Virus record (IMG/VR): IMGVR_UViG_3300033153_005765
Span: 1-22,161 of that record
From: a virus
Reading direction: 5' to 3' (one strand)
Length of the DNA stretch: 22,161 nucleotides
Part shown: piece by piece, positions 4,161 to 16,939 of the stretch
How the letters are laid out: each line of letters opens with the position of its first letter
Position numbering within the stretch: the first letter of the stretch is position 1
Made by a program: the position numbers and the translations under genes
Notes under the pieces: generated by a model
What the model saw: the letters and a program-made list of their open reading frames with translations, nothing else
Told to the model about the DNA's origin: nothing
Databases searched by the model: none

Positions 4161-5096
4161 TTAAGAACCTGAACCATCAGAACCATACCAGTCGATAGGT
4201 AAAACTGCGTTTACAAATCTAAATGAAGCAGAAGAAGGGAAAACATCAGTTAGATTTTCTCTTGTAATTCTATCTTCTAGCATTGGATCTTGGATGAAGT
4301 CCATTACAAATGAATTGTCTTGTCCTCTATCTTGAGCAAACCAAGCAGTAGAAGAAGTCATGTAAGGAGTTTCAATCAAAGTATAAGTACCATTATTGTA
4401 AATATTTACATCACCGATAGTTGTAGCAGTTAATTTATTATCACCAGCTAAAGTTTTTCTAAATGAAACAGAAGCAGATCAACCTTTCTTAACCCAAAGA
4501 GTATTTAAGTTAATAGGAAATTCTAATCAATTAGCATCTTTAAAATCACCAGAGTAAGCTTCTAAAGCAGTAAGCGCAGCTTCACCAGCAACAATATTAG
4601 AAGCGTGTTTGTTAGTAAAAGTAGCACCAGTTGATTTCCAAGTATGAGCAGCAAATATAGCATTACCATCTGGAGCTAAAAATTCAGCACCTGCAAAACC
4701 ATCGTTTAATAATTTCACACCTTGTCTTTCGATAAACATTCTCATTCTATTCATTAATAGAGGAACTTTTTCATCAACTATTTTATTAAATAAAGTAGTT
4801 TCATCTTTAGCATTTAATTTTTCTTTTTTAGAAATTGTGATTTTTCAACCAAATTCTTCAGAAGTAGAAACAACTTCATAACCTTCTTCGTTTTTAATGT
4901 CTTTAAGATTTTCATCTTCATTAAAATAAGCAACTTCATCACCACCTTCAGTAGAAGTATACCCTTTAGAGTAATCGTTTGAATTACTTACATTAAACAT
5001 TTTTGAAAAAACTGATTGTTCAACAGCCTCTTTTGAGTATTGTACAAAACTAGCTTTTACTTTCTCATCTAAATGAGCTGGAAAATTAGTAATCAT
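4161..5096 (-). CDS. Major capsid protein
   Basis: A 311-residue protein starting MITNFPAHLDEKVKASF at the ATG at 5096. Features include an acidic N-terminal part, a central segment with MFIERQGVKLLNDGFAGAEF, and a C-terminal part with YMTSSTAWFAQDRGQDNSF, FIQDPMLEDRITREN and a closing NAVLPIDWYGSDGSGS. Length, order (portal, scaffold, decoration, this gene) and the WFAQD/ITREN segment fit an HK97-fold major head protein. Only 3 of 23 glycines use UGA (near 4478, at 4527 and at 4845), far fewer than in the neighbours, as expected for the most highly made protein. The fold is inferred, not shown. Confidence 0.8.
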
Positions 5097-5125
5097 AATA
5101 TATTATATTATATAGTTAAAATAAA

Positions 5126-5530
5126 TTATAGAGTTTTGTTTATAACAACTCTAACTTTGTCAGTAGAATCAACAGTACCAGCATTTTCAGATGGTAATAC
5201 TTTTAATACATCAGTAGTAGATGTTCCTAGATCAATTAATTGAGCATCAGTAATATCTATTTCTGTACCTCTATTAGTTTTAGCAAAGTTTGCATCAGCA
5301 GTACCTTCTAATACTAAATTTTCATCATTATTTACTACTGCGATAGTTTCTCAATCAGCAGCTCATCCTTCACAATATGCAACAGCAGTAGAAGCAGCAA
5401 CTGCAACTATAGCTAATCCAGTATCTAATGCAACTAAACTACCAGCAGGAATAACTGTAGCAGAAGCTTTTTCTAATACAATAGTATTATCTATAGCAGT
5501 AGAATCTACAATTTTAAATTTTTTTGCCAT
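5126..5530 (-). CDS. Probable head decoration protein
   Basis: A 134-residue beta-rich protein starting MAKKFKIVDSTAIDNTIVLE. The segment ATVIPAGSLVALDTGLAIVA and the low-complexity AVAASTAVAYCEGGAAD resemble small capsid-surface proteins of the DUF2190/decoration type, in which an alternating hydrophobic pattern surrounds a conserved Gly-Ser-Leu turn. It sits directly upstream of the major capsid gene and downstream of the scaffold. Only 2 of its 9 glycines use UGA, like the capsid gene, which suggests high expression. The decoration role is inferred from position, size and composition. Confidence 0.65.
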
Positions 5531-5558: not shown

Positions 5559-6185
5559 TTATAATCAAACACTTTTCATCCTATTTTTATATTCATCAGA
5601 TGAAAGCATTCAGAATTTTTTAACGTTTGGTCTATCCATTATATTTTCCTCTTTGTCTTTAGTAGGAGGAAGTCAAATATTACCTCATAAAACTTTAGAA
5701 TTTCATTTAGACTTCTCTAATTGAGCTTGATCTATGAATCATGTAGTTTTAAGAATTTCTGAATAATCCTTATCCTTGTGTAATTGTTTTAAATCTTTAA
5801 GTATAACCTTTTGAGTTTCACTTAACGTTTTAAATTCAGAAGTAAAATCATTAAATTCTTTGTCTTCTGCATCCTTAGATTGCTTAGACTCAATATCAGA
5901 CTTAAAGGTCTTAAATTCGTCTAATTCTTCATTGGTAGCAAAACCCATATCCTTTAGGATTTTTTTAGTCTGTTCCAATTCTACATCTCAAGGGTTCTTC
6001 TTTTCATCAGCTGTTTTTTGATTTCTTTGAGTAAACTCTTTTTGTAAGTTATTGTAACTATCTAAAAGTTGTTCTCAAGTCATATCTTGCCCATTTACTG
6101 AGAAAGTACTGTTTGTTGGTTGGTTATCCGAACCAGTCGAATCTCATTCCTGAGTTTGTTCAACCTTTTTATCTAACTCCGACAT
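5559..6185 (-). CDS. Probable capsid scaffold protein
   Basis: A 208-residue, highly charged, helix-rich protein. It starts MSELDKKVEQTQEGDSTGSD, has a Gln/Lys-rich coiled-coil middle (QTKKILKDMGFATNEELDEF, then KTLSETQKVILKDLKQLHKD) and a basic C-terminal tail (SSDEYKNRMKSVGL). An acidic, extended N-terminus, coiled-coil middle and small basic end placed between portal and major capsid is the usual layout of phage scaffolding proteins. The chosen ATG at 6185 is the one in frame; the ATG four bases upstream is not. About nine UGA codons are read as Gly. The start lies only 13 bases after the T tract of a terminator. Confidence 0.7.
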
Positions 6186-6585: not shown

Positions 6586-8424
6586 TTAAGTTATGTTTAA
6601 ATTACCTCAAGCTACTTGCTCTGTTAATCATGCGGCATCTAAAGCTGGATTTAATTCAACTTTAGCTCAAGCTTTTCAAGTTACCTCTCAACCTAATTCT
6701 CATCCTCATCATAATAAGTCTCAAAGTCCTCATTCTTCTTTTTCTTTTATTACTCAATCCTCATATCATTCAAACGTACTAAATACTTTTCTGAAAATAT
6801 CATCCATATCTATATTAGCTCAATTAGCAGCTCCTTCTACTGCTATATTTTTAACAGCTAGAGCGTCAGCTCTTCTGTTTTCTACATCATCAAAACTTGA
6901 TGAATTAGCCTCTATTGTGATATCATATCTCTCTATAGCATCTTTTATAGCTTCAACATTTAACTTTAAAAATTCTCAACTATCTAATTTTTTAAGTGTA
7001 ATATTTTTATCTATATTATTTACTGTCCAATCAAGAATAGTATATGCTAATTCTTGAACTCATTTTTCAAAATTCTTTCTTAATTCTCATATAACTGAAT
7101 TTGATTCAAAGAAACTTATTCTGGCTCAAGTAGCAGTATTTGTTAATGCAGTTTGTCATCCTGGTTGAGATACATCAGTAGTATGTGATAACGCTTGAAT
7201 ATCTCTATTATAATCATTAACATTACTGAAATATTGAGCTGGTAATTGATTATCTTTTTGTTCTCTGAAATTTCTTTCAGCAGCCTCTACTCCATTTGTA
7301 CATACGATAATATTTCAAGGTTTATCTGAAACCAAACTAGCTGGATCTATTCAACTCTCTGGAGACCATAAATATGATCTATTTAATGATTTACTCATAG
7401 CTGTAGCCTGAGCATTCTTTTGAAAATTTAACTCATCTGTAACTCATAATATAGGAGCTACTAATCAAACAGAATAAAAAACCTCTGGATCTTCGTGTCA
7501 TTTAATATCAACATAAGATAATTTAGTTATTTCTTTAGCTCATATTAGAATAGTTCAATTTATAGACACAAATTCATACATTCTTTCATCTTTAGCTTCT
7601 CAAGTTAGACTATATTTTCATTCATATACTTGCAATTCGATACTATTTTTGTCTATTCATTGTTTTACTTTTATATCTGATATTCAAGTAATATTAAAAA
7701 TAGAAGATGCATAACTATCAATAGAATCAAAAGTAGTTCAAGCTAAATTATTAGCTTCTTCTGTATTAAAATATCAATCAGTAAACAAAATATCTTGCAT
7801 TCTAACTCTTTTTCTAATTCTAAACAAACCAGGCATATCTTCAAGAATTTTATATCTTGGATCATAATACATTTCAGTCCAACTAGCTATATCTATTGTA
7901 GGTAAAGTTTCTATAACTTTTTCAGTTACTTTTCATTTTCAATCTTTACTTCTTTGAACTTTATATTTAGGAATAACTTGAGCAAATGAATTTCAATATG
8001 TAAGCATGTTTACAGCCCAATATTTTAATCTTTCTCTAAATCAAGTATCTTCAAATACTGAAGTTAAATAATCTTGAGTAGCCTTAGCATACAGATTATG
8101 TTTTTCCAACATTTCCGTTCTATCTTTACCAGTCTTTTTTTCATCTCAAGCATCAAATAAATCAGTTCTAGTGCTTACTAGGAATCTTGGACTTCTAGCT
8201 ATTAATCTAGGAACTACTTTTCTAACAACCTCATGAGCTTTATTAATCTTAAATCTAGTTAATACATCTCATGTATCAGGCATTTCAAAGGTTGATAATG
8301 ATTCATATATTTGCAACATTTGCTCCCTATATCTAGAACTTTGAGTTTTAAATAGGTCTGTGTTCTCTTGAATAAATCAAAGAATTTCTTTTTGTTCTTT
8401 TTTTGTAGGAGTAAAAGCAGTCAT
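6586..8424 (-). CDS. Portal protein
   Basis: A 612-residue protein directly downstream of the terminase, as expected for a portal. It starts MTAFTPTKKEQKEILGFIQE. Portal-like features are the early segment INKAHEVVRKVVPRLIARSP, the central beta region, and the helix-rich segment LGVTDELNFQKNAQATAMSK, typical of portals where a long helix follows a Pro/Gly turn. The glycine-rich tail (GGLGDLLGGGGELGGEVTGK) makes heavy use of UGA. The portal is the dodecameric ring at the capsid vertex through which DNA passes. Function is inferred from order, length and segment style. The antisense reading frame near its 3' end is a shadow. Confidence 0.8.
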
Positions 8425-8479
8425 ATATTTATTTTTTAGTGATATAAATTTATTATATATAATTTTTATTCTTTGCAAA

Positions 8480-11023
8480 TTATTTAACTATAACAGGCAT
8501 TCAGTTTGCTGTATATTTAATTTTAGGCATTTTATATTTCATTCATACATTTGGTTGAAGTTCATATAAATATAAAAGCATTTGAAGTCAATCAGGACAA
8601 TCATCATGTCTTCATCTAGGAAATTTCAATAACTGAGACTCAAGTTTTTCTCATCTCATATCTTCTTTATGGTGTATTAGTCAGTTTCTATATAAAGGAA
8701 TTAGTGATCTTATTTTTGCTCATTTATCTTCCTTTTGTCTAATTTCTACAATTTCAGTTTTGTATATTCATTCTTTTTTCAATCTTCTCCTCAAAGAAAA
8801 AGTAATTGTAACCTGAGCCGCTATTGATTCAATTCAGATTTTTTCTGGATTCCATTTCTTGATATGATTCACCATTATATCCTCTAGTTCTGCTGGGTCA
8901 TATTTTCAAACAGTTTGTTCCAATATGTACATCTCATCTCAAACAAATTTAGCTGTAGTTACAACACTGTCATCAGCAGATTTCTTTTTACTAAAAGCTG
9001 GGTCAGTAGTGGTAAATATTCTTCATTGTTCACTAGGTGTTCATTTATAATACTTAAACCATTCTTCATGAAATTCTTGATTCTCTTTAGATATAGGATC
9101 TTGTTGATATTGACACGAAAATATTAATTCTCTTCATTTTCTAATCTTAGCAAGAACCTCTAAATCAAATCTAGCAGGAAACAAAGCTTCTCATATTTCT
9201 CTTCATACAACCCTTCAATCAGAAAGAGTAAACTCCTCTTTTTCTTCAGCTATTGCTGGTAAATTTACTATATCCCATTCATCTCAAGTTCAGTCATCCA
9301 TTTTTTCTCTTAGGAATCAACATAGGTCATTATCATGTAATCTTTGCATAATAATTATTATTGAATCTTTTTTAGGATTATTTAATCTTGAAACTACTGT
9401 ATTTTCAAACCAGTTATTGATTCAGATTCTTTTTATATCAGAATCTACTTCATCTGGTTTTAGTGGGTCATCTACTAAGAAGATTGAAGCTCACCTTCAA
9501 GTTATGGATCAACCTGAACCTGTTGCGTAATAACTACCTCATGTTTCTAATTTCCAATAATCTTTTGTATTCTGACTATCTTTAATTTTGGTATTTCTAG
9601 GAAAAATACTATTAAATCATTTTGAATTATAGTAATCTCTAGCTTCAGAAGAAAATTCTTGAGCTAGAGTTGCAGAATAAGAAGTAGATATTATTTCAAG
9701 ATAAGGATTACTTCATAAAGCCCAAACAGGAAAACATTTTGTAATTAGCTCGGTATTATGAGTAGGGATATATGATTTTCAAACAAGATACAAATGATCT
9801 TTATTGTCTACTTGTATACATTTTCAAGAAACAGAAGGTATCTTGTTTATTGAAATAATAGCATTTCTTCTATATAAACATTTTTTTACATTTTTTTGTT
9901 TTCTAGGTAAATGAGAAAAAATATCCTCTACATAAGGAGAAAATCAAACAACATAACATTGTTTTGTATCTTTTATAATATAACCATTTAGTAATCTATG
10001 GAATGTATTAATTTTTGGTTTATATTCTGTAATTCTAAATCATAAAGAGGAAACTAATTCTTTTACTCAGTTAATTATATTGATATTTGTATTAATAAAT
10101 CTAATTCTTCAAGATTTATCAATACTTCAATCACTATCTATTAACCCTCTTAGTAATTCCATTCTATCCTCAATATTTGATTGAAGATAGATATTAGGAA
10201 TATGTTTATTATTCAATAATTCCAATTTTCTTAGTTTTGTAGCTAATCATTTGAAATATTGAGTTATAACTCAAGTTGTTTTATGTTTGATTCTATATCA
10301 TAACTCAAATCAGAAATCTTTTTTTAAAACAACATCTAAATCTTCTTCACACATATTTAATTTTCAATCTGCAGAAGTTCAATCTCATAACCATAATCAT
10401 AAAAGATATGGATTGATAGATAAATTATTCTTAATGTATTCTACTGGTTTTGTAAAATCTACTAAGAATCTATTTCATTTACCATCCTTTCTGATTAATC
10501 AATCATTTACCATTGTTTGAGTATCTATTGTTCTGTATTTATTTAAACCTTTATCAAATACAGTCCATAAATGCTCTTTATGTGCTTTAATTACTCATTT
10601 ATTAGCAAATGTAACCTCTAAATCTATATCGTTTGTAGTTTCACTACAATGAGTTACAGTTGTAATTTTACCATCAATTCAAAATAACTTATCTCAAATC
10701 TGTAATTCTCAATGAGTTTTATATCATTTAATTGTAGGTATTAAAGTATCATTCGATATTTTTTTTCAATGTCTTGGTGGAAGGTTTATCATTAACCTAT
10801 TTACCTTTCATTCAATAACACCTTTTAATTTATCTGCTATTAAATCATAGTGCCAATTACTATCAAAATCCCTATTTTTTTCAGCTTTAAAGAATCATTT
10901 CATAAAAGAGATAAGATTATCCCTTTCATCTGTAGTTTTCTCTTCTAGAGCCTTTAAAATGATTTCTTTCTTAATTGCATCTTGAGCTAAATTCTTTTTA
11001 TTATTTCTTTGTCTGAAAGCCAT
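8480..11023 (-). CDS. Terminase large subunit, interrupted by an intein
   Basis: An 847-residue precursor starting MAFRQRNNKKNLAQDAIKKE. The exteins (87 and 424 residues) join to a 511-residue terminase of usual size. The Walker A motif PPRHGK (residues 82-87) is split after Lys by a 336-residue intein and resumes with TELITKCFPVW. Walker B is SIFLVDDPLKP (first Asp near residue 518 of the precursor). The nuclease part shows TTTDPAFSKKKSADDS (first Asp near 674), IGIESIAAQ and a C-terminal HDDCPDGLQMLL with the last acidic site. It cuts and pumps DNA into the prohead. The first 23 bases overlap the 3' end of a small upstream gene. Most glycines are UGA. Activity requires splicing, because the intein breaks the ATP site. 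Confidence 0.92.
9755..10762 (-). mobile_element. Intein with LAGLIDADG endonuclease in terminase (candidate class 3)
   Basis: 336 residues inserted between Lys and Thr of the terminase Walker A. The N-terminal block KISNDTLIPTIKG begins with Lys rather than Cys or Ser. The C-terminal block reads CIQVDNKDHLYLVGKSYIPT then HN, followed by extein Thr. Trp66 (in HKEHLW), Cys315 and Thr334 match the Trp/Cys/Thr triplet that marks class 3 inteins, which use the internal Cys in place of residue 1. Two dodecapeptides are present, YLLGLWLGDGTSADG (about 119-133) and ELLRGLIDSDGSID (about 202-215); both acidic catalytic residues are kept, so homing activity is plausible. UGA encodes 22 of its 27 glycines, so it is adapted to this code. 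Splicing and homing are inferred from motifs. Confidence 0.9.
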
Positions 11024-11252
11024 GTTTATTTTGTTTATATCATAAAGCTGCATCTAACTTCGCTGAAGCATTTTTAAACATTCTAAATATACTATTATTA
11101 AAAAAACTTATATTTCATAAAGTTATATAACTTTTAGTTTTTTTAAATCATCTCCATTCATGTATTACTATATTGATATCATACCTACCTAATAAATGAT
11201 TAATTAAATATAAGGTAAATAATATCATAACCATACTTCATAATATTAACAT
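11001..11252 (-). CDS. Small membrane protein overlapping the terminase start
   Basis: An 83-residue protein. The N-terminal 22 residues (MLILGSMVMILFTLYLINHL) form one hydrophobic helix, followed by a basic, soluble tail with RGFKKTKSY and KNASAKLDAALGYKQNKHG. It starts 10 bases after the stop of the large zipper protein and its last 23 bases overlap the terminase gene, which supports translational coupling. Four UGA codons are read as Gly. I recognise no family; position between an ejection-type protein and the terminase gives no firm clue. Confidence 0.6.
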
Positions 11253-15814: not shown

Positions 15815-16939
15815 TTAAGTTTTAATTATATAATTTATTACTAAATATGGTTGTAAAATATTATGTGAAGCTCATCATCAAGAAACTTGTATCATTGTTG
15901 TATTGACAGTATCATTAGAATTTTTACCCATAGTATTTCAAGCTGAAGAACTTGCAGATAGATAATTTGTAGCTCATATTGCCTCATTTGATAATCAACT
16001 TCAAACTAAAACATTATGATTATGTGATGGTATTTCTCCTGTTGTAAGTGTATGTGTTTCTGTACCTCAAGTATCTCATAACGCATTAAATGTAGCTCAA
16101 TCTTTACCTACTGGTGTATTACCTGTTAAATCTGGTATATTAAATGTAGTAGAACCATCTCATACTCAATAAGTAGTTCATATTACTGCAAATAATATAG
16201 CATAAGTAATCCTATTAATAGCACTTCAATCAGCTATTAACCAAGATGCTGGAGGTGTGTCAATAGTCCATAATTTTAATTCTCAAGGTATTCATATATA
16301 AGAAGCTCAGCCTATTATTTTATCAGCTCAAAAAGTTAATTCAGCTCATGTTCATCAAGTAGTTACTTGTGTATTAAATTCTGTTTGCGTTCACATCTCA
16401 ACCTTACCAGCTACAGCTTCACTTGCATTTGGAGTAGATCAAGTTGCTCTGTTAGTCCAAGTTCAACCTATATAATCTGTAAATAATCATAATGAAGTTA
16501 CGTATACTTGCATTCAATTAGTTGGAGATGTTATAACAGCGTCTCTAGCTGTTTCGTCGGCATAAATAACTCATAATCAGTCATCTGCATCTATTTTACT
16601 ATTTATAGCATCTTTAATATTTTTCCAGAATTGATAATTATTGGAAATTATCAATGTAGAGTTTACAGGATGATCTTGAGCAGTAGAATTTACTCATGCT
16701 CATTTCTCTAATGTAATATTAGAAACATTTAATGTTTTTAATACAGCATCATAAGAATCTATCTCAGCTATTTGGATATTATCGTTCTTAGGGTTTATAA
16801 CAATAAAAGTAGTTTCTCAAACAGGAAATGTAAAGTTTGGAACTTTATTTACGTTTACAGTTCAAAGTTGTCAATCGTAAGACTGCGATAAACTGGTTTC
16901 AAATCAATCTTCTAAAGGTATTGAAGTTAAATTAGTCAT
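15815..16939 (-). CDS. Tail-collar-domain fibre protein
   Basis: A 374-residue protein starting MTNLTSIPLEDGFETSLSQS. The N-terminal half is beta-rich. The C-terminal half is a textbook phage tail collar domain: PASWLIADGSAINRITYAIL, FAVIGTTYGVGDGSTTFNIP, DLTGNTPVGKD, the metal-site type motif EIPSHNHN, and the closing HNILQPYLVINYIIKT. 34 of its 43 glycines are UGA and they fall on the invariant glycines of the domain (DGS, GTTYGVGDG), giving independent proof of the code. It follows directly after a candidate tail-junction protein and probably forms a short fibre or collar element of the virion. Family assignment is strong; exact place in the virion is inferred. Confidence 0.9.

Follow-up and report, generated by a model that had tools for sequence, protein, structure and literature searches.

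Depletion of the reassigned glycine codon UGA from capsid genes of code-25 phages

In phages that read UGA as glycine (code 25), this reassigned stop codon is depleted relative to its synonyms in the genes presumed to be highly expressed, with the virion role of each protein serving as the proxy for expression. The likely explanation, in which we place high confidence, is that, in the code-25 host, UGA serves poorly as a glycine codon and that translational selection strips it from the phage genes that are translated most.

UGA in the window and in related phages

The window, which is the whole stretch of DNA analysed here, is a virus record of 22,161 bases whose reading frames are open only when UGA is read as sense, with a mean open reading frame of 380 aa under code 25 as compared to 123 aa under code 11. 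At alignment columns that are invariant in code-11 sister phages, 125 of 134 UGA sites of code-25 phages align to glycine; for the UGA codons of the window, the same comparison gives 10 of 11. By this alignment and the openness of the frames, UGA is glycine in these phages. Judging by its code, the window phage would infect a Gracilibacteria or Absconditabacteria host. No close relative was found in INPHARED, where the top identities were 25-32%, and a scan of genome contigs with the terminase alignment returned Rhodobacterales matches only. Six close relatives (L006, L008, L009, L079, L022 and L029) use code 11, and TGA gene ends are rare in them (0-1 of about 5-14 reading frames of at least 90 aa). 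Across code-25 and code-11 relatives, the code label requires two changes on the portal tree, which may be compatible with a single origin.

The structural genes of the window lie on the minus strand. The gene at 4161..5096 encodes 311 aa under code 25 and is placed in the head module, after the scaffold and decoration genes. This synteny, together with matches of a low-confidence structural model, identifies it as an HK97-fold major capsid protein (MCP). The AlphaFold model has a mean pLDDT of only 44.5, yet the first 42 VIA-align matches to it, at Z 7.1-3.9, consist entirely of HK97-fold capsids, encapsulins and herpesvirus capsids, with unrelated folds appearing at Z 3.6 and lower. One member of the family matches the phrog_4523 major head and protease protein (E 1.5e-4). 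No family is matched directly by the window MCP itself, a Foldseek search on its own found nothing significant for it, and neither its family nor the decoration family of the window has a sequence match in the PDB. The other MCP type found in the relatives is securely identified as a capsid from its sequence, matching the phrog_267 major head protein in 14 of 14 cases as well as PDB capsid chains.

The adjacent gene at 5126..5530 (134 aa) is tentatively assigned as a capsid decoration (cement) protein. Homologues with 52-59% identity occur in the same synteny in L095, L096 and L097, and one of the homologues has a weak match to PF09956 Phage_cement_2 (E 0.025); the structural model of the protein (pLDDT 35) is unusable. 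A scaffold-like gene of 208 aa follows at 5559..6185, its identity suggested by position only. For comparison, the portal gene at 6586..8478, whose product has a low copy number (phrog_156 portal, E 1.7e-6), is well supported by sequence, and the large terminase gene at 8480..11053 (phrog_38 terminase, E 1.5e-100) and the tail collar fibre gene at 15815..16939 (PF07484 Collar, E 7.6e-20) are securely identified in the same way. An in-frame intein that includes a LAGLIDADG endonuclease domain (PF14528, E 3e-8) lies within the terminase gene at about residues 96-433, and the terminase of the relative L004 has an intein-like insert, apparently at a different site. In L002, the terminase frame is broken at L002:3974-3979 by an in-frame TAA or TAG with a possible restart close after, reflecting either a sequencing error or a real stop.

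When counted by script over the 19 closed genes of the window, UGA accounts for 326 of 444 glycine codons; away from the MCP and decoration genes, its share in the window is about 76%. The MCP gene uses it at 3 of 23 glycines, with GGU taking 18 of the 23 (p=7e-10 against the other window genes, Fisher), and the decoration gene at 2 of 9 (p=0.0018, Fisher). In contrast, the scaffold-like gene has 9 of 13, the portal gene 38 of 47, the terminase gene 52 of 61 and the collar fibre gene 34 of 43. No further window gene is depleted to the level of the MCP and decoration genes, and the terminase gene is slightly enriched (p=0.03). These numbers reproduce exactly the counts for the MCP, decoration, collar fibre and scaffold genes in the initial annotation, which had allowed that a scripted count might make the ratios equal; they are unequal. 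A long gene that runs off the contig end (1-2745, minus strand), fibre-like by eye, uses UGA for about 75% of its glycines.

The contrast recurs beyond the window, as the initial annotation had anticipated for per-gene ratios over many code-25 phages. A first MCP scan with a single-sequence query had no matches, and IMG/VR scans with the terminase and MCP yielded 23 distinct code-25 phages having an MCP (the window included) and 7 code-11 sisters. When genes shorter than 100 aa or with fewer than 8 glycines are set aside, the smallest UGA share belongs to the MCP in 21 of the 23 phages. Measured against the rest of each genome, the Mantel-Haenszel odds ratio (OR) for UGA versus GGN in the MCP is 0.086 (z=-21), and leaving the window out gives 0.088 (p~1e-91). 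The decoration genes of three relatives use UGA at 6/15, 1/13 and 5/14 glycines (Mantel-Haenszel OR 0.17, p=3e-7, without the window). These p-values count related phages as independent, and the guard against an effect of kinship is provided by two unrelated phages and by two MCP families that profile comparison does not match to one another.

The two unrelated phages were obtained with a P-loop pattern containing three UGA glycines, which is blind to capsids, followed by selection of two further code-25 contigs on reading-frame structure. Both are siphovirus-like, have a gene order unlike that of the window group and contain a PF05065 (Phage_capsid) gene. UGA makes up 4 of 26 glycine codons in the capsid gene of one, against a genome-wide share of 0.80 (p=7e-13), and 4 of 34 in that of the other, against 0.63 (p=4e-10). 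Their PF18906 tail-tube genes are intermediate, at 17/27 (p=0.03) and 14/38 (p=0.0007). On L291 (IMGVR_UViG_3300031993_000180), a code-25, siphovirus-like contig, gene starts at about 15.4-18.4 kb resemble enzymes of 7-deazaguanine (queuosine/preQ0) biosynthesis in a reading by eye.

Departures from the pattern occur in individual phages. The L025 MCP (L025:4685-5890) retains UGA at 20 of 33 glycines, against 0.74 for its genome, while still avoiding AUA. The L027 MCP, at 13 of 35 against 0.62, shows little avoidance. The MCPs of L095 and L096 avoid UGA and do not avoid AUA. The separation of the two codons in L025, L095 and L096 indicates that their avoidance is imperfectly coupled and points to a UGA cost that varies by host; the L025 host may decode UGA better.

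Codon preference across virion genes

Across families, avoidance of UGA is graded. The ORs are 0.09 for the MCP, 0.15 for decoration, 0.59 for scaffold, 1.02 for terminase and 1.11 for portal, where the decoration and scaffold values use a background that excludes the MCP and the scaffold value covers 23 phages. This order matches the expected copy number of the virion proteins. The proposal in the initial annotation that abundant proteins prefer GGN is thus borne out for high-copy virion genes.

The loss of UGA is accompanied by a wider change in codon use. The MCP is poor in 20 codons and rich in 16 (|z| of at least about 3, over 16 phages), with AUA, AGG, GCA, UUU and AGU going down and AUC, UUC, UAC, AAC, GCU, ACU, UCU and GGU going up. 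Most of the depleted codons (AUA, AGG, GCA, UUU, AGU) are likewise low in the MCPs of the code-11 sisters. Such a shift toward preferred codons over many amino acids is the signature expected of translational selection on highly expressed genes. Among well-populated codons, UGA has both the lowest OR and the largest z in the MCP, and AUA-Ile comes next, almost as avoided. Because the MCP is optimised across codons and the code-11 sisters shift alike without UGA, UGA acts as the worst sense codon under ordinary selection for high-output translation.

When a codon score that leaves glycine out is trained solely on the 7 code-11 sisters, the top rank goes to the MCP in 21 of the 23 code-25 phages and to the decoration gene in the remaining two. 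Across genes, this score is negatively correlated with UGA share (rho -0.47; -0.27 when MCPs are removed, p=3e-4). Virion role and these non-glycine codons together suggest that the MCP and decoration genes are the most highly expressed. Nor is the effect simply an aversion to A at the third position. When UGA is compared with GGA alone in MCPs, the OR is 0.081, whereas the MCPs of code-11 phages do not shun GGA (OR 0.87), so that avoidance is specific to UGA and does not extend to A-ending glycine codons.

Several other causes were rejected. Gene conservation does not explain the pattern, as the terminase and portal genes (OR about 1) are as UGA-rich as the genome. Avoidance of a DNA motif does not fit the other frames, where UGA stands at 0.80x and 1.27x against 0.24x in frame. 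A ramp at gene starts was dismissed with a UGA share in the first 40 codons of 0.47-0.48 against 0.52-0.55, slightly lower. Inheritance of one capsid gene fails because the two MCP types of the group have no profile similarity and a third type occurs in unrelated phages. Frozen ancestry fails because MCP glycine codons turn over at the pace of those in the terminase and portal genes.

Why capsid genes lose UGA

The depletion, its replication and gradation, its specificity for frame and codon, and its co-occurrence with other codon optimisation are the observed parts of this account. Selection is proposed to act on elongation, falling first on the MCP, next on the proteins of the decoration and tail-tube genes, and only slightly on the scaffold. 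The most economical cause would be a low supply, or slow decoding, of tRNA-Gly(UCA), with GGU being read by tRNA-Gly(GCC). Elsewhere in the genome, AT-biased mutation from GGA to UGA would make UGA very common and often the commonest glycine codon, tolerated since little protein is required from the remaining genes. The initial annotation had suggested a scarce or slow tRNA, and this part of its reading remains reasonable, as UGA patterns with AUA-Ile and AGG-Arg, which are likewise strongly avoided. Its further statement that codon choice sets output goes beyond the data, which give only the loss of UGA and many poor codons from presumed high-expression genes. Standing against the preferred explanation, PMC10746230 proposes ample alternative-code tRNA in code-25 hosts.

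A phage-encoded supply of this tRNA was not detected. ARAGORN found no tRNA-Gly(UCA) in the window and 31 loci, nor in the full contigs examined; an Rfam tRNA search of 16 records found none; and a tRNA(UCA) pattern run over viral contigs gave tRNA-like matches, none clearly a code-25 tRNA-Gly. A tRNA gene at L098:598-668, at the start of the contig of the code-25 phage L024, has the anticodon UCC, G1-C72, C2-G71 and G3-C70 pairs, U73 and an encoded CCA, features which make it probably a tRNA-Gly for GGA/GGG and not for UGA.

An alternative that is unlikely, although it shares one prediction with a poor codon, is that UGA is error-prone or terminating, through residual release or misreading by tRNA-Trp, and so harms proteins that must build a perfect shell. 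The cost of inaccuracy would likewise scale with protein amount, and proteomics of a BD1-5 bacterium detected low-level UGA mistranslation, with single peptides carrying Trp, Ala, Asp or Lys (PMC4032931). However, the UGA share at conserved versus variable glycines (terminase 0.46/0.57, portal 0.54/0.49, scaffold 0.69/0.42) reveals no consistent shunning. AUA and AGG, which carry no termination risk, are avoided too. As for release, in non-MCP genes the base following UGA (+4) has the same distribution as that following GGA (p=0.39), which means that UGA does not steer clear of contexts that favour strong termination, and prfB is reported to be absent from BD1-5 genomes (PMC6851277). The suggestion in the initial annotation that the tRNA competes with release therefore loses its footing, since hosts are reported without RF2 and the avoidance of strong termination contexts that such competition entails is not observed.

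Two historical or regulatory accounts fare worse. It is very improbable that the MCP and decoration genes, acquired or retained from a standard-code ancestor, are still on the way to accumulating UGA. In favour of this account, there are code-11 relatives, and the portal tree calls for two changes of code. The gene at L096:10107-13274, which encodes 1056 aa without a family match, uses UGA for 7% of 102 glycines and has an unremarkable codon score; being UGA-poor without a high codon score, it could be an import, possibly a recent one from a standard-code phage. As a general cause, though, ancestry is refuted by synonymous turnover. Glycine sites differ at 55% and 50% in MCP pairs and at 58% in the terminase and portal, yet UGA is involved in 36-44% of the MCP differences against 79-81% of the terminase and portal differences. 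Three MCP types in unlike phages are all UGA-poor, with no profile similarity found between two of them, and the optimised codon set of the MCP is missing from bulk code-11 genes. It is scarcely credible, in turn, that UGA content is regulatory, such that genes rich in UGA are kept in check while late genes free of it are let through, a scheme put forward for recoded phages whose hosts use the standard code. In favour of this reading, genes contrast strongly in their UGA use, and timing of late genes by such means has been proposed for some recoded phages (cited in PMC13059738). Here, the late tail, portal, terminase and fibre genes are as UGA-rich as others, and only high-copy proteins differ. 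The host is also inferred to read UGA as glycine throughout, and no tRNA-Gly(UCA) gene was seen in 25 phages, several of whose contigs are partial.

A broader and more tentative proposal is given somewhat less than even odds. In code-25 bacteria, the reassigned codon may never have reached parity with its synonyms: UGA-glycine would be the least favourable of all sense codons and a permanent burden wherever much protein is made. Phages would purge it from capsid genes and tolerate it where little protein is required, and some (RSA-ATP1) might offset it with a tRNA-Gly(UCA) of their own. That phage does encode one (PMC13059738).

Comparison with known systems

With nothing more than phage sequence, the pattern lets one read how well UGA is decoded in uncultured code-25 bacteria, and it separates the bulk frequency of UGA, set by mutation, from its translational merit, as seen in capsid genes. 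One practical consequence is that capsid genes are the least disrupted by UGA, so that standard-code annotation of code-25 phages should find the capsid first.

Avoidance of reassigned stops is known in eukaryotes. In Blastocrithidia (UAR=Glu, UGA=Trp), their use is lower in genes with high expression and falls as the codon adaptation index rises (PMC12153298), and in an oligohymenophorean ciliate (UAA=Lys, UAG=Glu) they are less used when expression is high (PMC10553269). The present case is alike in that the avoided codon is a reassigned stop and the genes are highly, here presumably highly, expressed. It differs in that those are eukaryotic nuclear codes, with UAA still terminating in Blastocrithidia, whereas this is a bacterial phage code with UGA as glycine. 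Here, moreover, no UGA release factor is reported in the hosts, and UGA usually supplies the majority of glycine codons in the genes that do not avoid it. We found no report of UGA avoidance in highly expressed genes for code 25 or its phages in the open-access literature; what appears new is the same pattern in this code, extending to bacteria what had been documented in a few eukaryotic nuclear codes.

As compared to classical translational selection in phages, the optimal MCP codons (AUC, UUC, UAC, AAC, GCU, ACU, GGU) are the same as in the code-11 sisters. The difference is that the codon most strongly rejected here is a reassigned stop, whose GGN synonyms differ at the first base.

The code-25 phages of Absconditabacteria and Gracilibacteria (PMC10746230) and RSA-ATP1 (PMC13059738) share the code and its dense in-frame UGA, and, unlike here, the available parts of these two sources contain no comparison of UGA between genes that we could find. 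The former argues that code-25 tRNAs may be plentiful, and the capsid pattern speaks against this published idea of hosts rich in UGA-decoding tRNA. Recoded phages on standard-code hosts (code 15 crAss-like phages; Borges 2022, cited in PMC13059738; PMC9523058) likewise use a former stop as sense in structural genes. Phage and host codes differ in those systems and UAG is tied to timing, whereas here the use of UGA tracks the expected amount of protein.
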